IMG/VR virus record: IMGVR_UViG_3300030102_008735
Span: 766 to 64,765 of that record
DNA length: 64,000 nt
From: a virus
Reading direction: 5' to 3' (one strand)
Below, one piece after another: positions 8,398 through 31,159 of this stretch (position 1 is its first letter; the number at the start of each line of letters is the position of its first letter). The notes beneath the pieces are model-generated. The model was not told where the DNA came from, searched no databases, and saw only the letters and a program-made list of their open reading frames with translations. The translations under genes and the position numbers were made by a program.

Positions 8398-8428
8398 ATA
8401 TAAAAAATAAAAAAATACAAAATAGCAA

Positions 8429-8803: not shown

Positions 8804-8833
8804 GAGTATTAATAAATAATAAAGGAGAAAAAC

Positions 8834-9007
8834 ATGGATAGTGTTGAAAAAATTCAAGAAGTATTGGATAACATACAACCTGATGTTACCAAGTTTAGCG
8901 GAGGTAATAAATCTGCTGGAACAAGAATTAGAAAAGCAATGCAGGAAATTAAAAAATTGGCTCAAGACGTAAGAGTTGAGGTCCAAGATAAAAAAAATAG
9001 TAAATAA
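8834..9007 (+). CDS. Histone H1-like DNA-binding protein (Bacteroidetes Hc1 type)
   Basis: This short gene encodes 57 residues. An AAGGAG ribosome site lies ten bases upstream. The second half, NKSAGTRIRKAMQEIKKLAQ then DVRVEVQDKK, closely follows the pattern I know from Bacteroidetes histone H1-like proteins (GN-x-AAGTRxRKAMQELKxLAQDIRxEVQ-x-x-K). The protein is helical with alternating acidic and basic faces. It probably coats or bends DNA. It is placed directly ahead of the gp32-like SSB under promoter P3, so it is made with replication proteins and not with the virion. The family call is from memory and strongly suggests a Bacteroidetes host. Confidence 0.7.
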   Translation: MDSVEKIQEVLDNIQPDVTKFSGGNKSAGTRIRKAMQEIKKLAQDVRVEVQDKKNSK

Positions 9008-9026
9008 TAATTAAAAGGAGTAAATA

Positions 9027-9797: not shown

Positions 9798-9807
9798 GAG
9801 GATATAG

Positions 9808-10935
9808 ATGGCAAAGAAAGTAACAACAAATAGAGATTCTTTAGCAGACATACTTGCTGACAGTTTAAATAAAAAGTTTAAAGACTATAAGGTTGCTTAT
9901 TTTCTTGACGGTACTGAAGAAACTCCAACCGACCTAACAGAATGGATAAGCACAGGGTCATCAATGTTAGACATTGCAATTTCAAACAGAAAAAATGGTG
10001 GAATACCAGTTGGTAGAATTACCGAAATAACTGGTTTGGAAGGAAGTGGTAAAAGTCTTATGGCTGCACATATTCTTGCAAATACACAAAAGCAAGGTGG
10101 TATGGCCGTATACATTGATACTGAAAATGCTATGAACGAAGAATTTGCTCGAGCAGTAGGTATAGACATTAAAAATATGTTATACATACAATTGGAAACA
10201 ATAGAGGAAATATTCGAGGTTATGGAAAACATAGTAACAAAAGTTAGGGAAGGTGATAGTGATAGGTTAGTTACAATAGTAGTTGATTCATTGGCTGGAG
10301 CTACAACTAAAGTTGAAAGCGAAGCTGACTATAGTAAAGACGGATGGGCTACTAGTAAGGCTATCATTTTGTCAAAAGCAATGAGAAAAATTACTCAAAT
10401 GATTGGAAGACAGAGAATATGTGCTGTATTTACAAATCAGCTTAGACAAAAAATGGGAGTAATGTTTGGTGATCCTTGGACTACTTCTGGAGGAAAGGCA
10501 GTTGCTTTTCACTCTAGTTGTAGATTAAGGTTAAAGCCAATGGGTCAGATAAAGGCCAAGGTAGATGGCCAAGACCAGGTAATAGGAATAAAAACAGTTG
10601 CACAAGTTGTAAAAAATAGAATGGGACCACCATTAAGAAAATCACAATTTGAAATATACTTTGAAAGTGGAATTGATGATTTAGGTGGATGGTTACAGGT
10701 TATGAAAGACTACAAACTTGTAAAACAAGGAGGAAGTTGGTATACATATACTGATAAATCTGGTAAAGACCATAAATTTATGTCAAAGGATTGGAATGAT
10801 TTACTAACAAACAATCCAGACCTAAAGCAAGAAATTTATGATTTAATAACTGAAACTGTTATTATGAACTATAAGGTTGATAATTTTGGAATTGATGATA
10901 TTGAAATTAGCAATGAACCGGTACCTGAAAATTAA
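9808..10935 (+). CDS. uvsX: UvsX/RecA-type recombinase
   Basis: This 375-residue recombinase catalyses strand exchange for recombination-dependent replication and repair. The Walker A loop is GLEGSGKS at about residues 75-82. The Walker B strand is LVTIVVDSLAG near 150-160. The segment TNQLRQKMGVMFGDPWTTSGGKA near 210-230 (broken here as TNQLRQKMGVMFGDP and WTTSGGKA) matches the L2 DNA-binding loop region. A clean AGGAGG lies seven bases upstream of the ATG. The C-terminus is acidic, as in UvsX and RecA, and probably regulates DNA access. It is co-transcribed with the SSB gene from P3. A 370-base non-coding stretch follows. Confidence 0.92.
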   Translation: MAKKVTTNRDSLADILADSLNKKFKDYKVAYFLDGTEETPTDLTEWISTGSSMLDIAISNRKNGGIPVGRITEITGLEGSGKSLMAAHILANTQKQGGMAVYIDTENAMNEEFARAVGIDIKNMLYIQLETIEEIFEVMENIVTKVREGDSDRLVTIVVDSLAGATTKVESEADYSKDGWATSKAIILSKAMRKITQMIGRQRICAVFTNQLRQKMGVMFGDPWTTSGGKAVAFHSSCRLRLKPMGQIKAKVDGQDQVIGIKTVAQVVKNRMGPPLRKSQFEIYFESGIDDLGGWLQVMKDYKLVKQGGSWYTYTDKSGKDHKFMSKDWNDLLTNNPDLKQEIYDLITETVIMNYKVDNFGIDDIEISNEPVPEN

Positions 10936-10944
10936 TATATCCTT

Positions 10945-11240
10945 ATATGATGGGAAGCAAGTCTTCCCTGAGTCTTACGATAACGGCCACCTTCACGTGG
11001 TGTAAGACGTTACGGTCAAAAGTCCTCACGAGTATAATGACTATTTTGATCAACTAAGAGCCGTAAATTTTAGTAGTATTAGAGGTAACATTGATTGGTC
11101 CAGTGACCCCAATTAAATGTAAATAATATGACAGAACAAATAGTTTTGATGTAAAGCTGATACCAAGTGTCTTTTAACCGTCACTGTTGAAAGAAATAGA
11201 AAATACATCTAAATATTAGCTTCTAATACTACATTTTTTC
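10945..11240 (+). ncRNA. Candidate structured non-coding RNA, two domains
   Basis: The uvsX to exonuclease gap has dense, nested complementarity. In the 5' domain, GGGAAG 10952-10957 pairs with CTTCCC 10963-10968, GTCTTAC 10972-10978 with GTAAGAC 11002-11008, and CCAC 10987-10990 with GTGG 10997-11000. TTACGG 11010-11015 pairs with CCGTAA 11061-11066, enclosing TCAAAAGTC and its partner GAC-TA-TTTTGA at 11039-11049. TAACG 10981-10985 can also pair with CGTTA 11008-11012, which gives a pseudoknot or switch. In the 3' domain an 11-bp perfect helix (GTAGTATTAGA 11073-11083 with TCTAATACTAC 11222-11232) closes about 140 bases of smaller hairpins and is followed by six Ts. I recognise no known class. 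It could be a trans-acting RNA or the leader and terminator of uvsX. Confidence 0.6.
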
Positions 11241-11244
11241 TCTT

Positions 11245-11279
11245 AAAAATTTTTTTATCCCAATTGTTTTGGTTATATT
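11245..11279 (+). promoter_or_regulatory. Phage promoter, T-box/N13/GTTATATT class (P4)
   Basis: TTTTTTTAT at 11250-11258, 13 bases, GTTATATT at 11272-11279, preceded by G rather than the extended TG. It begins immediately after the T-run that ends the candidate RNA and serves the exonuclease gene at 11306. Confidence 0.7.
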
Positions 11280-11305
11280 TAATTAAATAAATAGATTAGA
11301 AGATT

Positions 11306-12352
11306 ATGAACAAAAAGTATTTTTCAATTTTAGAAACACTAAAAGAAAATAAAAACACAGAATCAGGACCAAATGATAGGATATTACTTATTGATGGACT
11401 AAATACTTTCATTAGAAGTTTTGCAGCAAATCCAGTTACAAATGACGATGGAATTCATGTAGGAGGAATAACAGGATTTTTAATGTCAATAGGCTATGCA
11501 ATTAGAAACATAAAACCAACAAGAGTAATTATATGCTGGGATGGAAAAGGTGGTAGCCAAAGGCGTAGAAAATTGTTTCCGGAATATAAAGGAAATAGGC
11601 GTGTAAGATCTAGGTTAACAAGACATGTTAGTATCGGAACTATGGAAGATGAAAAAGTTGCAATGAAAAACCAATTACTAAGACTTTCACAATATATTGA
11701 TACATTACCTCTTCACATGGTATCAGTGGAGAATATTGAAGCTGATGATTCTATTGCATATATATGCGAGCAATTGTATCCAAAGAGTCAAGTATTTATT
11801 ATGTCAACTGATAAAGACTTTATGCAACTTGTAAGTGATCGTGTAACAGTATGGTCACCAACAAAAAAGAAGTACTACTTTGCAGATACAATTAAAGAAG
11901 AATATGGAATCCATCCAAATAATTTTTTAATGTTTAGAACAATAACAGGTGATGGTTCAGATAATATACCTGGAATACGTGGTGCAGGACTAAAGACATT
12001 AATAAATAGAATGCCTATAATTGCAGGTAAAGAAAACATAACGGTTGATCAAATTGTTGAATTCTGTAAGAAAAATACAAATATTAAAATACTAAAAACA
12101 ATTTCAGAGTCGGCTGATTTATTAAACTTAAATTATGACTTAATGCAATTAAACAATGTTGATATATCAGGCTCAGCAAAATTAAAAATAAATAATTGTG
12201 TAAAGGAAAAAATACCAAGATTAGTTAAATATGAATTTTTAAAAATGATGATAGAGGATAACATAAACAATGCAATCAAAAACCCAGAGTTTTGGTTAAG
12301 AGATACTTTTCTATCGTTAGATACTTATGCAGGAATGACACATGGCAGATAA
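11306..12352 (+). CDS. 5'-3' exonuclease / flap endonuclease (T4 RNase H-like)
   Basis: This 348-residue protein belongs to the FEN/PIN-like 5' nuclease superfamily that removes RNA primers and flaps. Metal-binding acids appear in order: LLIDGLNTFIR near residue 28, ICWDGKGGSQRRR near 74, VENIEADDSIAY near 145, and MSTDKDFMQL near 170. GDGSDNIPGIRGAGLKT (near 213-230) is the helix-hairpin-helix plus acid motif typical of the family. The basic patch KGNRRVRSRLTR lies in the arch region. Its end overlaps the helicase start by 11 bases. No clamp-binding peptide is seen at the C-terminus. It is probably made with the helicase from promoter P4. Confidence 0.85.
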   Translation: MNKKYFSILETLKENKNTESGPNDRILLIDGLNTFIRSFAANPVTNDDGIHVGGITGFLMSIGYAIRNIKPTRVIICWDGKGGSQRRRKLFPEYKGNRRVRSRLTRHVSIGTMEDEKVAMKNQLLRLSQYIDTLPLHMVSVENIEADDSIAYICEQLYPKSQVFIMSTDKDFMQLVSDRVTVWSPTKKKYYFADTIKEEYGIHPNNFLMFRTITGDGSDNIPGIRGAGLKTLINRMPIIAGKENITVDQIVEFCKKNTNIKILKTISESADLLNLNYDLMQLNNVDISGSAKLKINNCVKEKIPRLVKYEFLKMMIEDNINNAIKNPEFWLRDTFLSLDTYAGMTHGR

Positions 12353-13691
12353 ACTATCAGAATTTGGATATAATTTTCAGATAAAATTAATAGCATCACT
12401 ATTTACAGATAGGGCATACTTACAACAAATATCTGATATTTTAGAACCTAATATGTTTGAAAGCGAAGCTAATTATTTTATAGTTGATACTATTAAAAAA
12501 TATTTTCAAACATACAAATCTCCACCTACTATGGAAGTAATGAAAGTACAGGTTGAAGAAATTGATAATGATGTACTAAAGACAACTGTAGTGGATCATC
12601 TAAAGGATTCATACAAACAATTAGAATCAGATGACCTTGAATTTGTAAAAGAAAAAACTTTAATGTTTTGTAAAAATCAAAAATTAAAAAAGGCAATTAT
12701 TAGGTCTGTTGATTTACTAAAGGACAACGATTTTGAATCAATTAAAACAGTAATTGATGAATCACTAAAGGCAGGTTCAGATAGAGATGTCGGCCATGAA
12801 TATTTAGAGGAAATAGATCTAAGATATGAAGAAAGTGTTAGAAATGTAGTAACTACAGGATGGGAAGTAATTGATGATCTTGCTGATGGTGGTTTAGGTA
12901 AAGGTGAACTTGGAGTTATGGTCGCCCCTGCAGGTATTGGTAAGTCGTGGGCACTAGTAAATATAGGTGCAAATGCTGTTAAAGCAGGACTAAAAGTTAT
13001 ACATTATACACTAGAATTAAATGAACACTATGTAGGTCTAAGATATGATAGTGTATTTACAGGTATTGCTGCACAAGATTTAAAATACAATATTGATGAT
13101 GTAAAGAAAAGGCTTACTAATGTAGAAGGAAATCTTATTGTAAAGTATTATCCAACTAAAGGTGCATCTGTGAATTCAATATCTGCACATATTGAAAAAT
13201 GCATGGTACAAGGATTTAAACCTGATATGGTAATAGTAGATTATGCAGATCTATTAAGAGGTTCTGGAAAATCTAGAGAACTAAGACATGAACTTGGAAA
13301 TCTATATGAAGATCTTCGAGGAATTGCAGGTGAACATGAAATACCAGTTTGGACAGCATCTCAAGCAAATAGGTCAGCTTTGGAGGAAGATGTTATCGGT
13401 GCAGAAAAAATAGCAGAGTCATATGCAAAAATAATGACGGCTGACTTTGTAATATCATTAAGTAGAAAAATTGAAGATAAGATAGCAGGCACAGGAAGAT
13501 GGCATGTTATTAAAAATAGATTTGGTCCTGATGGTATTACACTACCAAGTAAAATGAATGCGAGTAATGGTCAAATAGATATCTATGAATCGGATTCAAT
13601 ACAAGGTCAAGAAACCAGAAAAGATATGAATAATCATTCTGAGTATTTAAGAAAAATGATGGCAAATAAATATAAAGAACTTGATAGTTAA
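12342..13691 (+). CDS. dnaB: Replicative DNA helicase, DnaB/gp41 type
   Basis: This 449-residue RecA-fold hexameric helicase unwinds the fork. The N-terminal 150 residues are the helical DnaB-like domain (FQIKLIASLFTDRAYL). The ATPase domain has Walker A in APAGIGKSWALVN near residues 198-210 and Walker B in PDMVIVDYADLL near 300. The Q/R-loop segment AGEHEIPVWTASQANRSA follows. The C-terminal acidic and polar tail shows no added domain. It overlaps the exonuclease gene by 11 bases. No separate primase is visible in this window, so the primase is likely elsewhere in the genome. Confidence 0.88.
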   Translation: MADKLSEFGYNFQIKLIASLFTDRAYLQQISDILEPNMFESEANYFIVDTIKKYFQTYKSPPTMEVMKVQVEEIDNDVLKTTVVDHLKDSYKQLESDDLEFVKEKTLMFCKNQKLKKAIIRSVDLLKDNDFESIKTVIDESLKAGSDRDVGHEYLEEIDLRYEESVRNVVTTGWEVIDDLADGGLGKGELGVMVAPAGIGKSWALVNIGANAVKAGLKVIHYTLELNEHYVGLRYDSVFTGIAAQDLKYNIDDVKKRLTNVEGNLIVKYYPTKGASVNSISAHIEKCMVQGFKPDMVIVDYADLLRGSGKSRELRHELGNLYEDLRGIAGEHEIPVWTASQANRSALEEDVIGAEKIAESYAKIMTADFVISLSRKIEDKIAGTGRWHVIKNRFGPDGITLPSKMNASNGQIDIYESDSIQGQETRKDMNNHSEYLRKMMANKYKELDS

Positions 13692-13729
13692 CTTTATATA
13701 TGTATATTTTGATATTTATAGTTACATAC

Positions 13730-13748
13730 AGGACTATAAGTCCTTTTG
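13730..13748 (+). terminator. Short hairpin with T-tract, possible weak terminator
   Basis: AGGACT at 13730-13735 pairs with AGTCCT at 13739-13744 around an ATA loop and is followed by TTTG. The stem is six base pairs and the T-run is short, so termination would be partial at best. It lies between the helicase gene and nrdB. Confidence 0.4.
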
Positions 13749-13769
13749 TTATCTAATAGGAGTTATTAA

Positions 13770-14765
13770 ATGAATAAATTATTTGAAGAAAGAATCCCAT
13801 ACAAACCGTTTGAATATCCAGTTTATTATACTGAAGGTTGGCTAAAACAGGCACAAGCATTTTGGTTACATACTGAAATATCAATGCAAGGTGATGTAAA
13901 GGATTGGAAAGAAAAATTAACACCAGCTGAAAAAAATTTAGTAGGAAATATACTTTTAGGATTTGCACAAACCGAATGTGCAGTAAGTGATTACTGGACT
14001 GGAATGGTTACAAAGTGGTTTCCTAAATATGAAATACAACAAATGGCAATGATGTTTGGAAGTCAAGAAACAATACATGCAGTTGCTTACAGCTACTTAA
14101 ATGAAACATTAGGACTTGAAGATTTTGAAGCATTTTTACACGAACCTGCAACGGCAGATAAGTTTGAACTGCTTATGAATACAAGTGCAGATTACACACA
14201 TAAGGATTTGGCCAAAGATGGAAAGGCAAGGCAGGAGGTTGCAAGAAGTCTAGCAATCTTTAGTGCATTTGCAGAAGGTGTAAGTCTTTATAGTTCTTTT
14301 GCTGTTTTATATAGCTTCCAAATGAGAAACTTTTTAAAAGGGATTGGTCAACAAATGAAATGGAGTGTAAGAGATGAGTCTTTACACAGTAGAATGGGAT
14401 GTAAATTATTTAATCACATGTGTGAAGAATATCCAGAACTACGTGAACAGTCAAAGGATTCAATAGTTGAAGCTGCAAAAATGATTGTTGAATTGGAAGA
14501 AAAGTTTATTGACAAAATGTTTGAAATGGGAGACTTAGAAAATTTATCTGCATCAGATCTAAAGGAGTTCATTAAGCAAAGAACAAATGATAAATTACGG
14601 GAGTTAGGATATGAAGAAATATTTATTGTCAATCAAGAACAAGCTGGTAATTTGGATTGGTTCTATCATCTTACTGGTGGGCACACTCACACTGACTTTT
14701 TTAGTGTTAGGCCTACTGATTATAGCAAGGCTGGTGAAGATGATGATTGGGATGATTTATTTTAA
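13770..14765 (+). CDS. nrdB: Ribonucleotide reductase class I, small (radical) subunit
   Basis: This 331-residue NrdB subunit houses the di-metal tyrosyl radical cofactor. The segment SQETIHAVAYSYLNE gives the E-x2-H-x3-Y pattern, so the radical tyrosine appears intact. A second metal-ligand helix is seen at WSVRDESLHSRMG (E-x2-H). The C-terminus ends in DDDWDDLF, the kind of acidic aromatic tail that docks into the large subunit. TAGGAG nine bases upstream of the ATG fixes the start. It is followed after 12 bases by nrdA, so the order is small then large subunit. The enzyme supplies dNDPs for phage DNA synthesis. Confidence 0.92.
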   Translation: MNKLFEERIPYKPFEYPVYYTEGWLKQAQAFWLHTEISMQGDVKDWKEKLTPAEKNLVGNILLGFAQTECAVSDYWTGMVTKWFPKYEIQQMAMMFGSQETIHAVAYSYLNETLGLEDFEAFLHEPATADKFELLMNTSADYTHKDLAKDGKARQEVARSLAIFSAFAEGVSLYSSFAVLYSFQMRNFLKGIGQQMKWSVRDESLHSRMGCKLFNHMCEEYPELREQSKDSIVEAAKMIVELEEKFIDKMFEMGDLENLSASDLKEFIKQRTNDKLRELGYEEIFIVNQEQAGNLDWFYHLTGGHTHTDFFSVRPTDYSKAGEDDDWDDLF

Positions 14766-16757: not shown

Positions 16758-17690
16758 ATGAAAAACTATTTAATTGGATCAAATAATTATGCACTACTTG
16801 CTTCTTATCTTTTAAGTGACATAACAATTATACCAACAAGTAAATTTGAAGCAAACAATGTAGAACCCGAATTCTTACCTAACACTCCGGAAATAATTAA
16901 TATCGTAAATTCATTAGGACTAAAATATAAGGTAAAAATATTAAATGCATTTTTTGATGATAGAGGCAAAATATCAACAGTACCTTCAGATTCATTTAAA
17001 AATGTATATGCACTATCAACTAGGGGAAAACTTGCAGTTGAAAATAGTTACTTTGAAAAATTTAAAGGTAGCATGGAATATGTTTCAATAAAAAATAAAG
17101 GACCATTTGAAAGTTTCTACTTACTATTTAAAGAGATTAAGAAAAATATTGTTCTTAAGGATATGATAGATTCTGAGATAGATTCTATTAGTGTTAAAGA
17201 TAGTAACATAATACTATCAGATGGAAATATACTTGAATATAAAAGACTAATATGGACTGGTGATATAAAAAATTTAGATAAAAAACTTAATTTATTTACA
17301 AAAAAAATATATGTATATGTATGTGAATACAATAACGAGGCTGATAAAAAAATGTCAAACTTTTTTAGCTTTGGATATTCAACAGGTAAAACATACTTTA
17401 GAACTATTTATTTAAAAGACAAAATTGAATATCATTGTATGAAGAGAACATTTAAAGATGAAATTGATGGCAATAAAATAGTAAACAGTTTTAATACGGA
17501 ACAAATAATTGATAATTTAAGAAAAACAAACATGTATAATATAGATCTAATAAGTATGTACTCACAGTGGAATTTAGGTTATTCAATTAGTCAAGCATAC
17601 CGTGATTGTAAAGAATTGTATGAATATTACAATTTAGATAAAAAAATAGGTGATAATATTTTTAAATCCCAACAAAATTTGTTATATTAG
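16758..17690 (+). CDS. Unknown protein with a degenerate Rossmann-like N-terminus
   Basis: This 310-residue protein begins MKNYLIGSNNYALLASYLL, which looks like a beta-alpha-beta dinucleotide start with a broken glycine motif (GSNNYA instead of GxGxxG). The middle shows ILEYKRLIWTGD, similar to the late strand of FAD-dependent oxidoreductases of the UDP-galactopyranose mutase type. The end has SQWNLGYSISQAYRDCKEL, again a plausible FAD/NAD-domain helix. It sits between nrdA and the ThyA-fold gene. A degenerate flavoprotein that has become a scaffold is possible. I do not assign a reaction. An AAAGG site lies upstream of the ATG. Confidence 0.45.
   Translation: MKNYLIGSNNYALLASYLLSDITIIPTSKFEANNVEPEFLPNTPEIINIVNSLGLKYKVKILNAFFDDRGKISTVPSDSFKNVYALSTRGKLAVENSYFEKFKGSMEYVSIKNKGPFESFYLLFKEIKKNIVLKDMIDSEIDSISVKDSNIILSDGNILEYKRLIWTGDIKNLDKKLNLFTKKIYVYVCEYNNEADKKMSNFFSFGYSTGKTYFRTIYLKDKIEYHCMKRTFKDEIDGNKIVNSFNTEQIIDNLRKTNMYNIDLISMYSQWNLGYSISQAYRDCKELYEYYNLDKKIGDNIFKSQQNLLY
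17654..17688 (+). promoter_or_regulatory. Phage promoter, T-box/N13/GTTATATT class (P5, variant box)
   Basis: TTTTTAAAT at 17659-17667 replaces the usual TTTTTTTAT. It is followed by exactly 13 bases and GTTATATT at 17681-17688 with extended TG. The site overlaps the last codons of the upstream gene. It precedes the ThyA-fold gene at 17717 and would drive the whole modification cassette. Confidence 0.6.
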
Positions 17691-17716: not shown

Positions 17717-18559
17717 ATGAATATTTACAAAAATCTTAATGAAGCATTCTGGCATGAACTCAATAGTATATCTATAATGGGTAAAAATGTAGAAAGCCGT
17801 GGTACAAAACAAAAAGAAATACTTTTTAGAAATTTTACCATAGAAGATCCAACAGACTTAGATATAGTTTGGCCAAGTAGAAAATTTAATACAACATATA
17901 CACTTGCTGAATTTCTTTGGTATCTGTCAAGAAATCCTAACTCAGTTAACATTGGAAAATTTGCAAGAATTTGGTTAAACATCAAAGATAACGAAGATAA
18001 TGTAGAATCAAATTATGGCTGTTATGTATTTGGTAGTCAATGGGACTGGGCAGTAAAAGAATTGTTAGATGACAAGGATAGTCGACGTGCAACATTTGTA
18101 ATTGGTCAACCATATCACAAAACAAAAAATCCTAATGATATACCATGTACACAATATCTTCAATTTTTTATACGTGACAATAAACTTCATATGGGAACAT
18201 ACATGAGAAGTAATGACATTGTATTTGGTATGTCAAATGATATTTTTATATTTTGTTTGTTTCAACAATTAATGTTTAATGAATTAAAACAACATTACCC
18301 TGATTTACAAATAGGTACATACCATCACCATGCAGGAAGTTTACACTTATATGAAATGCATTATGATATGGCTGCACAAATATTGGAAGGTGATAGGGCA
18401 TCTGAGGATTATGAATTCTCAAGCAATATATTTACTCTTAAACCTAATATAACACTAGATTATATACAACAAAACAATCTGTATTTACCAGCCAAAGATA
18501 TGACTAAAGAAGAAATTGGTGAATATGCAAAAACAACTGGTGAAAAATTATTTATATGA
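17717..18559 (+). CDS. Thymidylate-synthase-fold enzyme, candidate dCMP hydroxymethylase
   Basis: This 280-residue protein has the ThyA fold. The nucleophile is C144 in IPCTQYLQF. The substrate-binding block TYMRSNDIVFGMSNDIFIF aligns with the bacterial Y-x-R-S-x-D...G-x-x-x-N segment, but the Asn that selects dUMP (E. coli N177) is D175 here. The Cys-to-Asp distance is 31, the same as C146-N177 in E. coli and, from memory, C148-D179 in T4 dCMP hydroxymethylase. The folate and nucleotide end GSLHLYEMHYD is present. The change argues for dCMP as substrate and 5-hydroxymethyl-dCMP as product. No other thymidylate synthase is visible in the window. Plain thymidylate synthase activity remains possible. 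Confidence 0.75.
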   Translation: MNIYKNLNEAFWHELNSISIMGKNVESRGTKQKEILFRNFTIEDPTDLDIVWPSRKFNTTYTLAEFLWYLSRNPNSVNIGKFARIWLNIKDNEDNVESNYGCYVFGSQWDWAVKELLDDKDSRRATFVIGQPYHKTKNPNDIPCTQYLQFFIRDNKLHMGTYMRSNDIVFGMSNDIFIFCLFQQLMFNELKQHYPDLQIGTYHHHAGSLHLYEMHYDMAAQILEGDRASEDYEFSSNIFTLKPNITLDYIQQNNLYLPAKDMTKEEIGEYAKTTGEKLFI

Positions 18560-18837
18560 AAAAGAAATCAATACTAAATAAGGCTGATGAAATAATTAAT
18601 AATCGTTCAGAAGAAAAAGAAAGAATGTACGGTCCTTTTAGTGAAGGAATGGAAAGGGCTGCAAAAATAGCAAGTGGCATGACAGGTAAAGACTTTACTG
18701 CTGAAGATATGTATGCTGCATTGGTTGCACTAAAACTATCAAGACATTCATATAATTATCGTGAAGATAATTTATTAGATTGTGTTGCATATTTAGGTGC
18801 ATTAGATAATTACATAAAGGAGAATAAGAATGGCTAA
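18556..18837 (+). CDS. DUF6378-like phage protein, 93 aa
   Basis: The start overlaps the end of the ThyA-fold gene (ATGA). The protein matches the pattern of DUF6378 family proteins: an N-terminal helix with ADEIINNRSEEKERMYGP, then FTAEDMYAALVALKLSRHSYNYREDNLLDCVAYLG. The Asp and Glu spacing recalls small all-alpha NTP pyrophosphatases, but no activity is known to me. It overlaps the next gene, a MazG-like protein, by eight bases. Co-location with nucleotide enzymes suggests a role in nucleotide pools. Confidence 0.6.
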   Translation: MKKKSILNKADEIINNRSEEKERMYGPFSEGMERAAKIASGMTGKDFTAEDMYAALVALKLSRHSYNYREDNLLDCVAYLGALDNYIKENKNG

Positions 18838-19297
18838 TTTTGATAATGAATGTAAAGATTTAAATGTAAAGGATTCATATAGTGAATCAACAACTCATTT
18901 GCATGATATAATGAGTCACCAAAAGTATATGCAAGAATATACTTATAAGTTAGATTTTTCAGAAATGACTATTGCTGAAATTATGAAGTTTTGGCATGCA
19001 AACAATCATGCAATTATTGATGAAATACATGAAATGACAGATGCTCTAGGTGGAATAAAGGATGGCTCAGGTAGTGCGGTTTGGAAGTACTGGAAACAGG
19101 ATCATAAGAAATACGAGAGTATGAAAATATCAGATCTATCTGAAGGTGATAGAAAAGAGTTATATATGGAATTTGTTGATGTACTACATTTCCTAATGAA
19201 CTATGCAGCATCAATAGGTTTGGATGCAAAAACAGTGTATAACTATTATTTTGCAAAGGCTGAGGAAAATAAGAAAAGACAACACCGAGGATATTAA
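18830..19297 (+). CDS. All-alpha NTP pyrophosphatase (MazG/dUTPase-dCTPase type)
   Basis: This 155-residue protein carries the two acidic metal-binding helices of the all-alpha NTP-PPase superfamily: IIDEIHEMTDALGG (E-x3-E/D pattern) near residues 62-75, and LYMEFVDVLHFLMNYA (E-x2-D) near 114-129. Such enzymes cut dUTP, dCTP or both to the monophosphate. In T4 the analogous dCTPase gp56 keeps unmodified dCTP out of the DNA, which would fit the candidate dCMP hydroxymethylase upstream. AAGGAG lies seven bases before the ATG. The substrate is inferred from context. Confidence 0.75.
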   Translation: MANFDNECKDLNVKDSYSESTTHLHDIMSHQKYMQEYTYKLDFSEMTIAEIMKFWHANNHAIIDEIHEMTDALGGIKDGSGSAVWKYWKQDHKKYESMKISDLSEGDRKELYMEFVDVLHFLMNYAASIGLDAKTVYNYYFAKAEENKKRQHRGY

Positions 19298-19713
19298 TGG
19301 ACAAACAAAGTAGATACGACATGGCATATATGAAAATGGCTAAAGAATGGAGTCAACTATCATTTGCAAATAGAATGAAGGTTGGTGCAATTATAGTCAA
19401 AGACCAGCAAATTATTAGTGATGGTTTCAATGGTATGCCAAGTGGTATGGATAATTGTTGTGAAGGTAATGACGGACAAACAAAAAAGGAAGTTTTACAT
19501 GCAGAGGCAAATGCAATTCTTAAATGTGCAAAACATAGAGGAGGTTGTGCAGGTTCAACTTTATATATTACATTAAGTCCATGCCAAGATTGCGCAAAAC
19601 TAATTCACCAAGCAGGAATTAAAAGAGTTGTTTACAGTGATATCTATAGACATGGAAATGGATTAGAATTCCTAAATAGTTGCGGAATAAAAACTGAAAA
19701 AATTAATCTATGA
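19297..19713 (+). CDS. dCMP deaminase
   Basis: The 138-residue protein has the cytidine-deaminase zinc site HAEANAIL (His, catalytic Glu) near residues 68-75 and LSPCQDCAKLI (two Cys ligands) near 94-104. It also has the N-terminal KVGAIIVKDQQIISDGFNG block typical of dCMP deaminases. It converts dCMP to dUMP. In a phage that also hydroxymethylates dCMP, it balances thymidine against modified cytosine, as gpCD does in T4. Its ATG overlaps the stop of the pyrophosphatase gene (TAATG). Confidence 0.88.
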   Translation: MDKQSRYDMAYMKMAKEWSQLSFANRMKVGAIIVKDQQIISDGFNGMPSGMDNCCEGNDGQTKKEVLHAEANAILKCAKHRGGCAGSTLYITLSPCQDCAKLIHQAGIKRVVYSDIYRHGNGLEFLNSCGIKTEKINL

Positions 19714-19764
19714 AAACACCTGCTTTGAACTTTTCAACTTGTATTTATATGAGAGACAAAAAAT

Positions 19765-20040
19765 ATGGTATATGCAAATAAAAAAATAGATTGGAAAATA
19801 AATATGGTTACGGTCGGCAATTGTGATGAATGCAAAAGAGTACATCCATTAGTTTCAAAATTCTGTGCAAAAAATAACATTAAGTTAAACATAATTCCTA
19901 ATGCGGAATATGATCCAAAGAAATGGAATTTTGTAAATCAAATATGGCCATTTTTTATTTTGGAAAAAAATGGTGAAAGTGTTTTAAAAATTAATGGATA
20001 TAGAGGTGAATTTAAAAAAATTGAAAGGATGATATTATGA
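19765..20040 (+). CDS. Thioredoxin/glutaredoxin-like protein
   Basis: The 91-residue protein has a thioredoxin fold. The redox motif is NCDECKRVHP (C-x2-C) near residues 19-28, and the cis-proline strand is QIWPFFIL near 64-71, followed by GYRGEFKKIE. The likely role is reduction of the phage ribonucleotide reductase C-terminal CxxC. It lies 51 bases after the deaminase gene, behind a TATTTATAT element. Its end overlaps the glycosyltransferase start by four bases. The first 15 residues are basic and extend slightly beyond typical phage glutaredoxins. Confidence 0.75.
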   Translation: MVYANKKIDWKINMVTVGNCDECKRVHPLVSKFCAKNNIKLNIIPNAEYDPKKWNFVNQIWPFFILEKNGESVLKINGYRGEFKKIERMIL

Positions 20041-21332
20041 AAATAGGAATAGGTAAAATGGGGAAATCAATGTTATTTTCTCAAAGTAAATGGGGATTGA
20101 TTGGTGGCGATGCTGCACCATCAATACTTTACACATCACTGGCATCAATAAATCCAAACATTACATTTTACATTGTAGGACGTTCTGACTTTTCAAAATT
20201 AACCAATGATGAAAAATCAAGACTATTTCCAAACAATAATGTTATAGACTGTTGGTCAGAAGCTGATATGAAAAATGCACATAGCAAATTTCATGCACCA
20301 CTTGAATATGTAAACCAACACAACATAAAATTGGATGCATTTGTTATGATGTCAGGAATGTGTAGTAGTGTTAATATGAATGATATGATTTGGAGTGTAA
20401 AGAATCCAGGAAAATATTCAAAGACATTATATCAATTCCATCACTATGCAGGTCCAATAATTCACTTTCTAAACATGACGCAAGTTCCAATGTTTACAAT
20501 TAGTGAAGATCCTAGACACATAAGACTTAATGCAAAAGATTTATTCAATAGGGAAAAATTTTGTTTAAGTCAAGAAAACTCAGTACAGAAAGTAAAGCAT
20601 ATAGTTAATTATGATGATCAATCAACTGTTGAGTATGATATACCTGTTAAGTATGGTCAAACTGAAAAGATATTTTTAATTGGTGAAACTAAAAGAAATA
20701 CATTAGAACTAAAAAAGGATATTCCAATAACAATGTTTATGAATAGTCACACAATGAAATCAAAAGAAACCAGAAAACCATTCATAGATGAATACATACA
20801 CAGTAACTTTCCAGATTCAAAGGTTTATGGTAAATGGCCAAAGGAACTACTAGAAAGTGATAATAGATATGAAGCTATTAGAATGGGAGATATCATGGAT
20901 GAAGTATTAAGAACAAAATATACATTAGTGGTATCAATAAAGCCAGGGTTTGTAACTTGTAAACCTTGGGAAATGATAAATTTTGGAATCATACCATTTT
21001 TACATCCAACATATGACACTAACAATCTACTAGGATTTCCAGAATGGCTGCATGTAAAAGATGCAAATGATTTTAAAAATAAGGTTGAATTTTTAGAAAA
21101 CAATCCTGATAAGTATATGAAGTTACGTGAATTACTACAAGATATGTTAGAACCAGAATTTTATGACGGAACATATATGAACAATTTAATTATGAGTAAT
21201 GTATGTAATATGATAGGTAAAGAATATGAAAATGCTAATCAAGGAACATCAGTAAAAATGTCATCATTTTCAGAAAAAGAAAGTGTACAGAAAAAATTAA
21301 AAAAAGATAAAAAACAAATGGAGTTATTTTAA
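20037..21332 (+). CDS. GT-B glycosyltransferase, candidate DNA beta-glycosyltransferase
   Basis: The 431-residue protein follows the layout of T4 DNA beta-glucosyltransferase. It starts MKIGIGKMGKS (T4: MKIAIINMG). A Rossmann strand is followed by FTISEDPRHIR (T4 FTDIRLPF). The second domain has ITMFMNSHTMKSKETRKPFI and then KVYGKWPKEL, and the nucleotide-sugar motif VTCKPWEMINFG with E312 matches RVWETM. A helical C-terminus follows. The extreme C-terminus is KKQMELF (Q427-F431), a good match to the sliding-clamp peptide QLxLF. T4 alpha-glucosyltransferase is reported to bind its clamp. The sugar donor is unknown. A polysaccharide transferase is less likely because of the clamp-like tail and the nucleotide-enzyme context. 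Confidence 0.65.
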   Translation: MKIGIGKMGKSMLFSQSKWGLIGGDAAPSILYTSLASINPNITFYIVGRSDFSKLTNDEKSRLFPNNNVIDCWSEADMKNAHSKFHAPLEYVNQHNIKLDAFVMMSGMCSSVNMNDMIWSVKNPGKYSKTLYQFHHYAGPIIHFLNMTQVPMFTISEDPRHIRLNAKDLFNREKFCLSQENSVQKVKHIVNYDDQSTVEYDIPVKYGQTEKIFLIGETKRNTLELKKDIPITMFMNSHTMKSKETRKPFIDEYIHSNFPDSKVYGKWPKELLESDNRYEAIRMGDIMDEVLRTKYTLVVSIKPGFVTCKPWEMINFGIIPFLHPTYDTNNLLGFPEWLHVKDANDFKNKVEFLENNPDKYMKLRELLQDMLEPEFYDGTYMNNLIMSNVCNMIGKEYENANQGTSVKMSSFSEKESVQKKLKKDKKQMELF

Positions 21333-21697
21333 TGAATGATACAAGACCTAAAACAATATTTTGTGATATAGATGGAACATTGGTTGAACATATGAAACCT
21401 AGCGAAGCAACCACGCCTTTTTCACGAATGAAACCTTTACCAGGTGCAGTTGATAAATTATTAGAATGGGAAAGAAAAGGGTACAATATTATACTTACAA
21501 CTGGTAGAAGAAATTGTGCAAGAAAACAAACAGAAGAACAATTAGCAAATGCAGGTATAGTTTATGATCAATTGATTATGGGATTTGGTGGTGGAAAGAG
21601 ATATTTAATCAATGATAGAAAACCTAATGGTCAAGAAGACTATGCAGTTGCAATAAACATAGAAAGAAATACAGGAATTGGAAATATAGAATTATGA
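21332..21697 (+). CDS. HAD-superfamily phosphatase
   Basis: The 121-residue protein has the HAD motifs. Motif I is FCDIDGTLVE (nucleophile Asp and acid-base Asp) near residues 10-19. Motif II is LTTGRRNC near 52-59. Motif III/IV is YLINDRKPNG near 92-101. It is a compact, capless HAD enzyme of the kind that removes phosphate from sugar phosphates or acts as a bacterial polynucleotide phosphatase. Its start overlaps the glycosyltransferase stop (TAATG) and its end overlaps the SIS-isomerase start. This suggests dephosphorylation of a sugar phosphate before C1 activation. Confidence 0.75.
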   Translation: MNDTRPKTIFCDIDGTLVEHMKPSEATTPFSRMKPLPGAVDKLLEWERKGYNIILTTGRRNCARKQTEEQLANAGIVYDQLIMGFGGGKRYLINDRKPNGQEDYAVAINIERNTGIGNIEL

Positions 21698-22245
21698 ATT
21701 ACGCTGAATTAAAAACAACAGTGATGTCAGAAATAAATGATGTATTAACATCAGTAGATGAAAAATCATTAGACATAATGTGTGACATAATACAATCATC
21801 AAATAAAATAGTTGTAGCTGGTGCCGGTAGAATGGGGTATTCAATAAAATGCTTTGGTATGAGATTAGGTCATATGGGATATCAAGCTTGGACTTTAGGT
21901 GATTCAACTGTACCTCAAATAGGAAAAGGTGATTTACTAATAGTTGCATCAGGAAGTGGTGAAACTGAAACCATCTACAATATAGTTTTAAAAGCAAAAC
22001 AGAATCGTGCAAAGGTGATATTAATAACAACTAAAAAGGAATCAAGAATGGCTTCTTCATCAGACCATTTAGTAATTATGAATGCCGTTTCTGCCTTTAC
22101 AGGTGATAGAGGAACTATTCAGCCTATGAAAACATATGTAGAGCAGTCATTACTTATCTTATTGGATATTATGGCACTAAAACTTATGCAAGAGTCTGGT
22201 GAGACAAATTTCACAATGTCAAAAAGGCATTCACTTTTAGAGTAG
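21694..22245 (+). CDS. SIS-domain sugar-phosphate isomerase (6-phospho-3-hexuloisomerase-like)
   Basis: The 183-residue protein is one SIS domain. KIVVAGAGRMGYSIKCFGMR closely follows the HxlB pattern GAGRSG..KAFAMR. IGKGDLLIVASGSGETET is the phosphosugar-binding loop. The length fits hexuloisomerases rather than KdsD/KpsF, which carry extra CBS domains. It should interconvert keto- and aldo- or 3-keto-sugar phosphates. It is coupled to the HAD gene by ATGA and precedes an RPE-like epimerase by five bases. Arabinose-5-phosphate isomerase activity is the alternative I would test, because phage RB69 arabinosylates its DNA. Confidence 0.72.
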   Translation: MNYAELKTTVMSEINDVLTSVDEKSLDIMCDIIQSSNKIVVAGAGRMGYSIKCFGMRLGHMGYQAWTLGDSTVPQIGKGDLLIVASGSGETETIYNIVLKAKQNRAKVILITTKKESRMASSSDHLVIMNAVSAFTGDRGTIQPMKTYVEQSLLILLDIMALKLMQESGETNFTMSKRHSLLE

Positions 22246-22250
22246 AAAAT

Positions 22251-22949
22251 ATGAAAAACAAATTTATGATAGGTGCATCTTTAATATGTGGAAATCAAGC
22301 AGATTTAAAAGGTGACGTTGAATTACTAAAAAAATCAGGTCAAGTTGACTTTTTACATGTTGATACTATGGATGGATTGTTTGTACCTAGATATGGAATG
22401 TATCCTGAACAAGTAAAACACATTAAAGAAATATGCGACATACCTGTAAATGTACATATGATGGTATCAAATCCTGAACCATTCATTGACTGGTTTGCAG
22501 AATCAGGTGCTGATATAATTACAATTCATGTAGAACCTAATCAGCAATTAGGAAGAACTATTGCAATGATAAAAAAGGCAGGATGTAAAGTTGGACTTGC
22601 ATTTAATATACATTCACAATATCATATCATTGAAAGTTTTATAGATGATATAAGTTTAGTTATGTTAATGGCAATAAATCCGGGAATCCTAGGACAAGGT
22701 TGTTGGCCAGGAATCTACAATAAGATTGATAGATTTAGAAAGTATTTGGACAACAACGGAAGAAGAGATGTTATAATTGAGATAGATGGAGGTGTAACAC
22801 CAGAAACAGCTCCTAAATTAATAAAGGCAGGTGCAAATATGTTAACTTGTGGAACTGGAACAATATATAGACCTAAAGAGGCACCATTAGATATTAAGAT
22901 TGGTCAATTTAAAAATAAAGTAAATAGGGAATTAGAATATGCAGTATAA
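22251..22949 (+). CDS. Ribulose-phosphate 3-epimerase-like enzyme
   Basis: The 232-residue TIM barrel has the RPE signatures in order: LHVDTMDGLFVPRYG (metal Asp) near residues 36-50, VNVHMMVSNP near 66-75, IHVEPNQQL, MAINPGILGQGCWP (phosphate loop) near 141-154, and IEIDGGVTPETAPKLIKAGA near 177-196. It should epimerise at C3 of a ketose phosphate, either ribulose/xylulose 5-phosphate or a hexulose such as allulose 6-phosphate. Tight linkage to the SIS and nucleotidyltransferase genes suggests that it supplies a dedicated sugar rather than serving central metabolism. Confidence 0.78.
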   Translation: MKNKFMIGASLICGNQADLKGDVELLKKSGQVDFLHVDTMDGLFVPRYGMYPEQVKHIKEICDIPVNVHMMVSNPEPFIDWFAESGADIITIHVEPNQQLGRTIAMIKKAGCKVGLAFNIHSQYHIIESFIDDISLVMLMAINPGILGQGCWPGIYNKIDRFRKYLDNNGRRDVIIEIDGGVTPETAPKLIKAGANMLTCGTGTIYRPKEAPLDIKIGQFKNKVNRELEYAV

Positions 22950-24567
22950 AGTATTATTAACAACTTCAGGTATAGGTAGTAGATTAGGTGAAATAACCGA
23001 CTATACAAATAAAGGATTAGTCAAGGTTGGTAAAAAACCAGCAATATCTTACATTATTGAATCATATCCAAAAACAATGGAATTTGTTGTAACCATAGGA
23101 TACTTTGCAGACCATGTAAGACAATTTCTAAACATTGCATATCCTGATAGAAAATTTACGTTTGTGGAAATTGATAACTATTCAGGTGAAGGAAGTAGTT
23201 TAGGATATTCTCAATTATGTGCAAAGGAACATTTACAATGCCCATTTATATATAATGCATGCGATACTATAGTACTTGATACAATACCCGAACCTGATAG
23301 AGATTGGGTAGGTGGATTTAAACAAAAAGGATCCAGCCAATATGACAGCTATTGTGTTACAAATGGTGATGTTAAAGAGTTTTATACTAAAGGAAATATA
23401 GATTCTGATTATGTATATATTGGACTAATAGGTGTTAATGATTATGAAAACTATTGGGAAACAATGGAAAAACTATATAATGAAGATCATAATATGAGAT
23501 CATTATCAGATCTATATTGTGTAAAGAATCAACTAAAAGAAGGCAAAAAAATATATCACAAACAATTTATGACATGGTATGACATAGGAAATGTTGAGTC
23601 TTTAAATAAAGCAAGGACTGATATTCCAGACTCATTTAATATTTTAGATAAGTTAGAAGAATCTATTTATTTATTTGATGACCATGTTATTAAGTTTTTT
23701 GCAAATGAAAAAATGTCAACACAAAGAGTTGATAGAGCATCTATCCTTGATGGTATGGTACCAAAGATTGTTGCTAAATCCCCAAACTTTTATAGATATG
23801 AATATGCCGAAGGTGATTTATATTCAAAGGTTGCAAATCCAATTACATTTGTTAAACTATTAGATTGGGCAAAGGAAAATTTATGGAAAGAAAATGATGT
23901 TGTTAGTGAAACAGATTTTAGAAAAGCATGTATAGATTTTTACTATGAAAAAACAATATCAAGAATAAATAAGTTTTATGATTCAACTCGTAACCTTGAT
24001 AAAGTAGAAACGATTAATGGTTTGCAAACACCAACAATAAATGAAATGCTTAAAGCCATAAATAGTGATTGGTTATGTAAGCCAAAACAAACAGGCTTTC
24101 ATGGTGACTTTATATTAGACAATATAATTTTAGGAGAAGAAGGATTTACTTTACTTGATTGGAGACAAAATTTTGGAGGTCTTATTGAGTGTGGTGATAT
24201 GTATTATGACTTGGCAAAACTTAATCACAACTTAGTAGTTAATCATGAAATAGTAAACAATAATCAATTTAAAGTTACAAAATCAAAAGATAATATTATA
24301 GTTGATATACATAGACGTCAATCCCTAATTGAATGTCAACAGGTTTATCATAAATGGATTGTTGATAACGGATATGATTTAAGTAAAGTAAAAGTTTTAA
24401 CATCTTTGATTTGGTTAAATATGTCCGCACTTCACCATCATCCATTTGATGAATTTTTATATTATTATGGAAAATACACATTATTAAAAACATTAGGAGA
24501 ATTAGAAAATGAATACGTTCCAACCTACAAACTTCAGTCCTCTAACAAAGTCTCAAACATACTTTAA
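22939..24567 (+). CDS. Fused sugar nucleotidyltransferase and APH-type kinase
   Basis: This 542-residue protein has two domains. The N-terminal 220 residues are a nucleotidyltransferase: LLTTSGIGSRLGEITDYTNK is a variant of the G-x-G-x-R-L...P-K signature, and FIYNACDTIVLDTIP carries the metal Asp. The C-terminal 310 residues are an aminoglycoside/choline-kinase-like fold with GFHGDFILDNIILG (H-G-D-x-x-x-x-N, catalytic Asp) near residue 392 and FTLLDWRQNFGG (metal D-W) near 412. The two steps would phosphorylate a free sugar at C1 and then join it to a nucleotide, as in the separate AmgK and MurU enzymes. Which sugar and which nucleotide cannot be read from the sequence. Confidence 0.75.
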   Translation: MQYKVLLTTSGIGSRLGEITDYTNKGLVKVGKKPAISYIIESYPKTMEFVVTIGYFADHVRQFLNIAYPDRKFTFVEIDNYSGEGSSLGYSQLCAKEHLQCPFIYNACDTIVLDTIPEPDRDWVGGFKQKGSSQYDSYCVTNGDVKEFYTKGNIDSDYVYIGLIGVNDYENYWETMEKLYNEDHNMRSLSDLYCVKNQLKEGKKIYHKQFMTWYDIGNVESLNKARTDIPDSFNILDKLEESIYLFDDHVIKFFANEKMSTQRVDRASILDGMVPKIVAKSPNFYRYEYAEGDLYSKVANPITFVKLLDWAKENLWKENDVVSETDFRKACIDFYYEKTISRINKFYDSTRNLDKVETINGLQTPTINEMLKAINSDWLCKPKQTGFHGDFILDNIILGEEGFTLLDWRQNFGGLIECGDMYYDLAKLNHNLVVNHEIVNNNQFKVTKSKDNIIVDIHRRQSLIECQQVYHKWIVDNGYDLSKVKVLTSLIWLNMSALHHHPFDEFLYYYGKYTLLKTLGELENEYVPTYKLQSSNKVSNIL

Positions 24568-24871
24568 GACTTGGGGTGAGAATAAGTCTGAATTATTAAA
24601 AGATCTATTCACAGACGATATATTATTACAAGACTGGGATAATAAAGCAACTGGTATAGATGAAGTATTAGAGGCAAATGCAGCAATATTTGCCGGTGTA
24701 ACAGATATTAAAGCAGTTCCTTTAATGATAAGAGTTGTTGATAACATAGCCTATTGTGAACTAGAAGTATTAGTAAAGGCAGAAGGTACTATAAGTAAAA
24801 TTTTAGTATTGGATATAATAACTTTTGACGAGGAAGGAAAAATTAAATCAATAAGAGCATATAAAGGGTAA
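24509..24871 (+). CDS. NTF2/SnoaL-like fold protein
   Basis: The 120-residue protein looks like a cone-shaped NTF2-like fold. A long N-terminal helix (SQTYFKTWGENKSELLKDLF) leads into TDDILLQDWDNKATGIDEVL and then curved strands ending ILVLDIITFDEEGKIKSIRAY. Its first 59 bases overlap the end of the kinase gene in another frame. TTAGGAG before the ATG supports this start. NTF2-like proteins are either small enzymes (isomerase, cyclase) or binding subunits. The place in the sugar cassette suggests a catalytic or carrier role on the sugar nucleotide; this is inference. Confidence 0.65.
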   Translation: MNTFQPTNFSPLTKSQTYFKTWGENKSELLKDLFTDDILLQDWDNKATGIDEVLEANAAIFAGVTDIKAVPLMIRVVDNIAYCELEVLVKAEGTISKILVLDIITFDEEGKIKSIRAYKG

Positions 24872-24873
24872 AC

Positions 24874-26121
24874 ATGAAACACGCAACAATAATTCCTTTA
24901 ATAGGTGGTATGACACTTGCAAATAAAAAGATAACTGGTAAAGATCCAGAAGTTATATTATCATACTCACCGTTTAAGGCAAACGATAGTCACATAACCA
25001 AATATCTTCCAAAAGTACCATATAAAGTATTAGATGATATGGGAGATGATGAAAAAAATATATTAATTGAAAAACTAAAAGGAAAACTTGATTTTGTTTC
25101 AACTGTTTGTCCTTGTGCAGGATTGGCAGGTACAAATACTGCACCTAAAACAAGTAGTAAAGGTCGTGGAGCACATGCAGAACAAAATCAATGGATGTAT
25201 AAAAGTGCAAAGCTAATTTTAGAAGATATAAAACCAAAAGTATTTTGGGGAGAAAATGCGCCAGGCCTATTTACTAAAATGGGTGTAGAGGTTGCAGATA
25301 ATCTTAGAAAAATTGGTGAAGATGCAGGATATAGCTTTTCAATGATTAAGACAAATACAGAGCTACATGGAATACCTCAGAGAAGAATTAGAACATTTTA
25401 TTTTTTCTGGGATAGTCCTTCTCCACCACTCTTTAATTGGGTTAAGAGAGATACTCCAAAACTATTAGACTATCTTGGTGAAATACCAAAAGATGCAACA
25501 CAATTTGATATGAGAATATGGATGGATCCCGTTACTGTTAAATATCCACCATATAAATTTTTATTAGATAAATTAGGTTTGACTCATGAACAAATGGTTA
25601 AAAAAGTTGGAAAGGGAACTGTATTTAGATATATGCAAGACAATGATTTATTTGATGAGTGCCTAGACTGGCTAAAAGTACACGCACCAAATGATGGTCC
25701 TAGTGGAGGAAAACCTGGAACAAATACTTATATTGATATCATTAATCATATAAAAAATAAATTGGCTGATGGGAAAGGATATTGGGATAGTTCACCGCAT
25801 TTATTTCACGAATCATTTAATGCAGTTATTGGAAGAAATATGTTTGATGGTGTACATCCAATTGAAAATAGATATATGAGTGTTAGAGAATATATTCATA
25901 TGATGGGAATGCCTCATGACTTTGAACTTGACAATATTAAAAACATAAATCATATTGCACAAAATGTTCCTGTAGGTACGGCATCAGATATGACTCAACA
26001 TGTTGTTGACTATATAAACGGAAAGTCATCATTATCAGATTCAAAGTTTTTAAAACAAGATAATGTTTCTAGAAAAACTGATGTAATTACAAATGAAAAA
26101 CAACTTGAACTTTTTTCATAA
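24874..26121 (+). CDS. C5-cytosine DNA methyltransferase with clamp-like tail
   Basis: The 415-residue protein has the Dcm family motifs. The catalytic Cys loop is STVCPCAGLAG near residues 71-81. Motif VI is FWGENAPG near 127-134. Motif VIII is GIPQRRIRTFYFF near 166-178. The C-terminal motifs IX and X are YMSVREYIHMMGMPHDFEL, then AQNVPVGTASDM. The N-terminal SAM motif I is unusual (PLIGGMTLA instead of DLFAGxGG). The extreme C-terminus is NEKQLELFS (Q410-F414), like the sliding-clamp peptide. There is no restriction endonuclease beside it. It should make 5-methylcytosine, which is puzzling if all dCMP is hydroxymethylated. It may act on a subset or be repurposed. Confidence 0.8.
   Translation: MKHATIIPLIGGMTLANKKITGKDPEVILSYSPFKANDSHITKYLPKVPYKVLDDMGDDEKNILIEKLKGKLDFVSTVCPCAGLAGTNTAPKTSSKGRGAHAEQNQWMYKSAKLILEDIKPKVFWGENAPGLFTKMGVEVADNLRKIGEDAGYSFSMIKTNTELHGIPQRRIRTFYFFWDSPSPPLFNWVKRDTPKLLDYLGEIPKDATQFDMRIWMDPVTVKYPPYKFLLDKLGLTHEQMVKKVGKGTVFRYMQDNDLFDECLDWLKVHAPNDGPSGGKPGTNTYIDIINHIKNKLADGKGYWDSSPHLFHESFNAVIGRNMFDGVHPIENRYMSVREYIHMMGMPHDFELDNIKNINHIAQNVPVGTASDMTQHVVDYINGKSSLSDSKFLKQDNVSRKTDVITNEKQLELFS

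Positions 26122-29217: not shown

Positions 29218-31158
<1,941 letters not shown>

Positions 31159-31159
<1 letters not shown>

Follow-up and report, generated by a model that had tools for sequence, protein, structure and literature searches.

We analysed a 64,000-nucleotide stretch of viral DNA (the window; positions 766-64765 of the 81,421-base IMG/VR virus record IMGVR_UViG_3300030102_008735) and describe here its operon at 17717-26121. We consider it fairly likely that this operon encodes T4-type cytosine replacement and glycosylation, with the sugar donor coming from an acquired module and a C5-cytosine-methyltransferase-like enzyme acting on the base. The T4-type pathway to glycosylated 5-hydroxymethylcytosine (hmC) is well supported by the predicted gene products. 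Homology assigns the 5-hydroxymethyl-dCMP (hmdCMP) and dCTPase chemistry, the type of the glycosyltransferase (GT), the identity of the module and the coupling of the methyltransferase-like enzyme (C5MT) to the GT, while the transfer of the sugar to DNA, its identity and the reaction of C5MT are our inferences.

In the proposed pathway, a ThyA-fold enzyme would convert dCMP to hmdCMP and a gp56-like enzyme would destroy dCTP, such that hmC enters DNA. A ribulose-phosphate 3-epimerase (RPE) and a SIS isomerase would lead from xylulose-5-phosphate via ribulose-5-phosphate to arabinose-5-phosphate (most likely D-arabinose-5-phosphate), which a HAD phosphatase would turn into arabinose. The two halves of a fused nucleotidyltransferase-kinase (NTK) would then produce arabinose-1-phosphate (kinase half) and NDP-arabinose (nucleotidyltransferase half). 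A GT resembling T4 beta-glucosyltransferase (BGT) would put the sugar on hmC in DNA, and C5MT, normally translated in tandem with the GT, would act on the base itself (flipping, C6 attack).

Operon layout and base chemistry

All open reading frames (ORFs) named in a first-pass annotation of this DNA are present and on the + strand. Predicted products and their basis are as follows.

17717..18559, +, dCMP hydroxymethylase (ThyA fold, Asp at E. coli position 177); PDB matches, diagnostic residues
18556..18837, +, DUF6378 protein; PF19905, 42.1 bits vs. cut-off 27.1
18830..19297, +, dCTPase of the T4 gp56 family; T4 gp56 alignment, phrog_173 1.5e-15
19297..19713, +, dCMP deaminase; PF00383 7e-25
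19765..20040, +, small CxxC protein; CDEC motif
20037..21332, +, DNA glycosyltransferase of beta-glucosyltransferase type (GT-B); family profile and AlphaFold (AF2) model
21332..21697, +, HAD phosphatase of the nucleotide-sugar module; HAD family matches
21694..22245, +, SIS sugar-phosphate isomerase, HxlB type; TIGR03127
22251..22949, +, RPE family enzyme; PF00834 1e-53
22939..24567, +, NTK, i.e., fused sugar-1-phosphate nucleotidyltransferase and APH-type sugar kinase; sub-cut-off Pfam matches, motifs, relatives
24509..24871, +, SnoaL/NTF2-like protein of the module; PF12680, 33.1 bits > 27
24874..26121, +, C5-cytosine-methyltransferase-like enzyme (C5MT) with altered cofactor motif; fold, catalytic residues, GT partnership
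21332..24871, +, the inserted nucleotide-sugar block HAD-SIS-RPE-NTK-NTF2 as a whole; module order in loci L210 and L167/L168 (labels of this kind denote the comparison loci we fetched)

Most neighbouring genes overlap by 1-11 nt or leave a gap of 2-52 nt between them. A longer overlap of 59 nt is found between the NTF2 ORF, as called, and its neighbour. Terminator-like matches within the operon are no more frequent than expected by chance (1 vs. 2.3 expected). The single tightly spaced operon of the first-pass annotation is thus confirmed, and so are its identities for the ThyA fold, DUF6378, dCMP deaminase, HAD, SIS, RPE, NTK (with weak Pfam matches for both halves), SnoaL/NTF2 and C5-methyltransferase proteins. 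Since the synteny recurs at dozens of loci, a chance origin of the gene set is excluded.

The ThyA-fold protein is the only ThyA-family gene product of the whole record. Its best PDB matches are MilA CMP 5-hydroxymethylase (6e-25) and T4 dCMP hydroxymethylase (2.5e-17), above every thymidylate synthase (TS). We compared ten diagnostic active-site positions (E. coli numbers 58, 80, 94, 146, 166, 169, 173, 177, 207 and 209). Here, the window protein reads EWYCRDGDHY and is identical to T4 gp42 at 10/10 positions, including the Asn177-to-Asp switch that had been noted before, with EWYCRDGNHY for E. coli TS and EAFCRNVDHF for RB69 ORF048c. RB69-type phages carry arabinose on 5-hydroxy-dC, which they make via a ThyA homolog distinct from the hydroxymethylase (PMC13390438). 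Combining this report with the RB69 annotation, we read ORF048c as the 5-hydroxy-dCMP (5-hodCMP) synthase. Because the RB69-type homolog is distinct, the residue test separates the hmC from the 5-hydroxy-dC route, and by its residues the window ThyA falls on the hmC side. Taken alone, the same residues may also be compatible with a dCMP methylase of the Xp12 kind. One apparent ThyA outlier with the 5-hodCMP-synthase signature turned out to be RB69's own protein.

The putative dCTPase aligns to T4 gp56 with 28.7% identity (74.7 bits). Its former label, a 'MazG-like' NTP pyrophosphatase, is therefore better replaced by T4 gp56 dCTPase homolog, while the function assigned to it, the destruction of dCTP, stands. 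Hydroxymethylation of dCMP and removal of dCTP by the operon's enzymes, as suggested initially, are supported by the hydroxymethylase matches, the gp42-like residues and the gp56 homology. Together with the deaminase, these enzymes would form the T4 cytosine-replacement set. The DUF6378 protein possibly has an accessory role in the nucleotide pool, judged from gene position alone; its PHROGs relatives are named 'phosphofructokinase' (phrog_474), which looks like a mis-annotation. The small CxxC protein is possibly thioredoxin- or glutaredoxin-like: the motif agrees with the earlier thioredoxin label, but a significant match was not found (thioredoxins at E=0.26 only). A search of the virus's own genome for Tet/JBP dioxygenases gave no match, while no positive control matched either.

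The glycosyltransferase and its methyltransferase-like partner

By itself, the GT sequence yields only a weak GT signal in Pfam, below significance. When a profile is built from its family (18 relatives), T4 BGT is the first match (E=4.9e-4), and BGT is also the top Foldseek PDB match of its AF2 model (1nzd, E=7e-8; pLDDT 80). In the family, 16/16 sequences retain the BGT residues E163, R195, R269 (as Lys) and E272, and an Asp158-Pro-Arg motif, matched by eye, probably corresponds to the Asp100 site of BGT. We thus assign the protein with moderate to good confidence as a DNA glycosyltransferase of BGT type, in line with the first reading of this gene. Its sugar donor is not readable from sequence.

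The C5-methyltransferase had been regarded as an outsider that fits the pathway poorly. It is instead the most conserved partner of the GT, i.e., a C5MT homolog is found at 36/39 nonredundant GT loci in IMG/VR, where the remaining three are of the Enterococcus phage 9183 type, a 4-kb fragment and the locus of a GT paralog. Both genes are always on the same strand, with a distance of at most 19 nt in 33/36 cases (median -3 nt; a short overlap is usual), as expected of translational coupling. Within the open-licence literature, we found no paper that describes this coupling. Where C5MT occurs without a window-type GT, other DNA-modifying enzymes take the GT's place. Representatives of three such clusters (of 19, 11 and 6 loci, respectively) match a DNA alpha-glucosyltransferase (PF11440, 1e-71), a TET-associated GT (PF20691) and a 5-hydroxymethyldeoxyuridine (5-hmdU) DNA kinase domain (PF18723). 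In total, more than 500 candidate stretches of the C5MT family were confirmed in IMG/VR, and many marine phages have it together with DNA-sugar genes.

A hydroxymethylase-type ThyA is encoded in 19/26 records with C5MT/GT, while one has a canonical TS only and six have no ThyA (five fragments below 70 kb and the 155-kb record of L013, with ThyX instead). None of 20 records with a window-type NTK only encodes it, where one weak, sub-cut-off TS-like match lacks the full signature, nor do these 20 records hold a PF00145 gene. The ThyA contrast yields a Fisher p-value of 2.5e-7, which is indicative, given that we chose records by size and that they lack phylogenetic independence. C5MT together with a hydroxymethylase-type ThyA is also present in Pseudoalteromonas phage XG4, the cyanophages S-TIM5 and S-TIM54, and Bacillus phage G.

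To characterise the family, we counted residues in 97 non-identical members (M.HhaI numbering) and used Dcm, M.HhaI and five sampled phage enzymes for comparison. The catalytic residues Cys81, Glu119, Arg163 and Arg165 are kept in 97/97 members, and the predicted structure shows the full C5-methyltransferase fold with its Rossmann topology. This is what PF00145 enzymes (M.HhaI, M.HaeIII, Dcm) share with the family. In contrast to them, motif I (FxGxGG) is changed to [IV]PLIGG (G20 to L and A19 to P, each in 96/97), the motif II acid is variable, PCQ reads PCA (Q82 to A, 94/97) and GNS reads QNV (N304 to Q, 97/97). Dcm, M.HhaI and most of the five phage enzymes retain motif I for S-adenosylmethionine (SAM), the motif II acid, PCQ and GNS. 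Likewise, the alignment of the family profile with M.HaeIII starts only after the motif I/II region.

Given invariant catalytic residues and changed motifs I and II, base activation seems to be kept and the cofactor site altered, i.e., C5MT would either bind SAM in a changed way or use another cofactor or none. There is in-vitro precedent for SAM-free chemistry in this fold: M.HhaI converts cytosine and formaldehyde to hmC, and hmC is in turn a substrate for thiol coupling by M.SssI (PMC7176277). An action of C5MT on hmC is thus possible. An ordinary SAM-dependent methyltransferase that marks leftover cytosines, as a second and independent modification compatible with the rest of the pathway, is a real possibility that we rate slightly short of even, given the fold, the invariant Cys/Glu/Arg and the Rossmann topology. 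The altered motifs speak against it, and a dependence on hmC and GT context is unexpected for an independent mark. The most far-reaching interpretation is speculative and in our view unlikely: C5MT would form a new class of post-replicative DNA-modifying enzymes that keep base flipping and Cys-C6 attack but have lost ordinary SAM use, that act on hmC or install the C5 hydroxymethyl group, and that regularly assist DNA glycosyltransferases in many marine phages. If the proposed pathway is right, C5MT, as a widespread family with intact active-site chemistry and an altered cofactor site, poses a testable question in DNA enzymology and possibly offers a DNA-labelling tool.

The inserted sugar module and competing explanations

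The block between GT and C5MT splits a pair that is usually coupled. Its SIS protein is of the 6-phospho-3-hexuloisomerase (HxlB) type (TIGR03127, 169.8 bits, cut-off 160; B. subtilis HxlB/YckF, 2.6e-30) and does not classify as a KdsD/GutQ-type arabinose-5-phosphate isomerase. It is 51% identical to its Patescibacteria relative in L167 and 47% to that of the marine virus L210. For RPE, the best structural matches are RPE enzymes, and the L167 RPE (49% identity) is itself above the RPE equivalog cut-off. The NTK halves match Pfam NTP_transferase and APH, both below cut-off, as well as Arch_glmU-type proteins; the motifs GxGxR and HGDxxxxN are present. NTK identity is 47-55% to AG-345-E15 and Patescibacteria NTKs, the Patescibacteria relatives being at 50-55%. 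SnoaL/NTF2 homologs were seen near window-type NTKs at 11 other loci.

Gene order is conserved as well. L210 has HAD-SIS-RPE-NTK as in the window (56, 47, 45 and 45% identity) among glycan genes, and Patescibacteria L167 and L168 have SIS-RPE-NTK in window order with no hmC genes nearby. Including L198 and AG-345-E15, identities to such glycan-cluster modules amount to 45-57%. The four genes thus form a mobile nucleotide-sugar module familiar from glycan clusters, with the difference that those modules lie amid glycan genes without hmC genes while the window's lies inside an hmC operon. Scanning viral contigs with single NTK and GT proteins had found only one near-identical contig; the further loci come from alignment-based scans.

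In L088 and L091, two related loci, the space between GT and C5MT is occupied by other genes, among them a GDP-mannose 3,5-epimerase in L088 (6e-82); L089 is judged alike from its spacing, and C5MT identity to these loci is 46-48%. The gap therefore appears to be a slot in which sugar-supply genes are placed. Where enough upstream sequence is available, most other GTs of the family have a HAD or NTK gene of their own beside them, and the window has these in the inserted block only. That the block supplies the donor sugar of the GT is the simplest reading and likely. A pentose is favoured by RPE, by the split transketolase halves beside SIS-RPE-NTK in viral contig L198 (6551-7629) and by the arabinose of RB69 with its analogous SIS-HAD-NTK set; D-arabinose is most likely and our best guess for the DNA sugar. 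If the proposed pathway is right, phage DNA hypermodification would be modular, i.e., a fixed core of hmC synthesis, DNA GT and C5MT-like enzyme plus a slot for nucleotide-sugar pathways from glycan clusters, and phages could swap their DNA sugar to evade modification-dependent restriction.

Several observations weigh against this pathway. The known substrate pair of HxlB is fructose-6-phosphate/hexulose-6-phosphate rather than ribulose-5-phosphate, SIS and RPE are found with no other GT/C5MT cassette, and a T4 gp1-type dNMP kinase (PF21448) was not found in the 81-kb record, which is possibly incomplete. The nearest relatives of the module sit in glycan-type clusters of phages and in Patescibacteria: 0/74 other viral loci with a window-type NTK have a hydroxymethylase, GT or C5MT within 10 kb, and hmC genes are likewise not near the NTKs of 5 bacterial loci. 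Furthermore, the window has its own glycan cluster:

33218-54752, glycan cluster; many GTs, NeuB (PF03102), cytidylyltransferase, carbamoyltransferase, UDP-GlcNAc 2-epimerase, UDP-sugar dehydrogenase, NAD epimerases, hexapeptide transferase

The HAD-SIS-RPE-NTK-NTF2 genes might instead be a glycan block that merely landed in the operon and feeds this cluster (at 33-55 kb, with sugar genes such as NeuB and the UDP-sugar enzymes), with the GT drawing on UDP-glucose from the host, as T4 does. The 74 viral and 5 bacterial loci and the 0/20 NTK-only records agree with this explanation, which we hold to be unlikely although of appreciable weight. The block lies exactly between GT and C5MT, which are nearly always contiguous elsewhere, with tight spacing throughout; it provides the HAD/NTK pair that most other GTs of the family have beside them and the window would otherwise miss; and related loci fill the same slot with other genes. 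The claim of a sugar dedicated to DNA is weakened by the module's relatives. Sugar genes in capsule clusters without ThyA-fold and GT genes, which the first-pass annotation had named as a finding that would refute it, are largely what is seen among the relatives but not at this locus, where they lie inside the hmC operon. The conserved synteny for which it proposed to search related phages is present for GT-C5MT and does not extend to SIS and RPE.

The HxlB-type SIS, above its cut-off, and RPE, a ribulose monophosphate (RuMP) enzyme, could alternatively serve formaldehyde assimilation in a methylotroph phage, as auxiliary genes with no relation to NTK. Patescibacteria and other phages however conserve SIS-RPE-NTK as a unit, and no hexulose-phosphate synthase (PF00215) was found in the record, with positive controls at 14/14. 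This largely refutes the RuMP explanation, to which we give hardly any weight. Similarly improbable is an RB69-type arabinosyl-5-hydroxycytosine instead of glycosyl-hmC. RB69 and other Mosigvirus phages do share the functional set, i.e., SIS, HAD and a fused NTP-transferase-kinase (RB69 ORF055c, ORF051c and ORF053_052c) next to a ThyA homolog and a GT, but the synthase signature (A80, F94, N169, V173, F209) is missing from the window ThyA, which is as T4 gp42 throughout, and on this ground we rejected the route. Both the window SIS (27% identity over 118 aa, E=0.005) and NTK (about 22% identity; E=0.008 to the Ac42 homolog of the RB69 NTK) show no more than a remote relationship to their RB69-type counterparts, and the window differs from RB69 further by its HxlB-type SIS, RPE and C5MT.

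Known systems, related cassettes and neighbouring genes

The T4 set, the BGT fold and the idea of an isomerase-kinase-NTP-transferase supply are already known (PMC6024577, PMC12838424, PMC13390438). Like T4 (gp42, gp56, cd, BGT), the window encodes a dCMP hydroxymethylase, a gp56-type dCTPase, a dCMP deaminase and a BGT-type GT; unlike T4, it has all of them in one operon, together with the nucleotide-sugar module and C5MT. The layout with a fused kinase-nucleotidyltransferase had been thought to be without precedent, but such fusions are known from RB69 and Shewanella phage Thanatos (TH1_060; pentosyl-cytosine), and a phage-made sugar supply has its precedent in the analogous set of RB69-type phages. 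Two things are new: the insertion of a glycan-type HAD-SIS-RPE-NTK module into a hydroxymethylase cassette, and the finding that phage DNA glycosyltransferases have the C5MT family, with its altered cofactor motifs, as a constant and coupled partner.

Among related cassettes, the Enterococcus phages 9183 and Planchet (Denvervirus; L002, L001) and XG4 share the Asp177 hydroxymethylase-type ThyA, HAD, NTK and a homologous GT with the window. They differ in having no SIS or RPE. XG4 also has C5MT and dCTPase, while Denvervirus is without C5MT and encodes a dUTPase-like protein beside its BGT-like GT. A sugar-modified cytosine is probable for both enterococcal phages, judging by their gene content; in 9183, the cassette genes are annotated as TS, phosphoheptose isomerase and hypothetical. 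Phage G (L010) has a kinase, HAD, NTP-transferase, alpha-GT and C5MT relative near a hydroxymethylase-type ThyA (Asp177; TS at record position 233481), which suggests a glycosyl-hmC system. L013 (IMGVR 3300025012_000031, 5262-14552) combines a GT-C5MT cassette with a separate kinase, HAD, NTP-transferase and an apparent radical-SAM protein, and its ThyX lies beside C5MT. In L161, L165 and L166, C5MT has a protein with the 5-hmdU DNA kinase domain (PF18723) and a hydroxymethylase as neighbours, possibly a non-glycosyl branch of the cassette.

Immediately upstream of the operon, and part of its gene run, is a 310-aa protein at 16758-17690 with a Rossmann-like N-terminus (YLIGSNNYALLASYLL). It has no Pfam, PHROG or PDB match and its relatives are from near-identical contigs only, such that we dropped its candidate assignment as UDP-galactopyranose-mutase. 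Downstream of the DNA polymerase, the window encodes GroES and GroEL, as judged by sequence, at 29218-31159.

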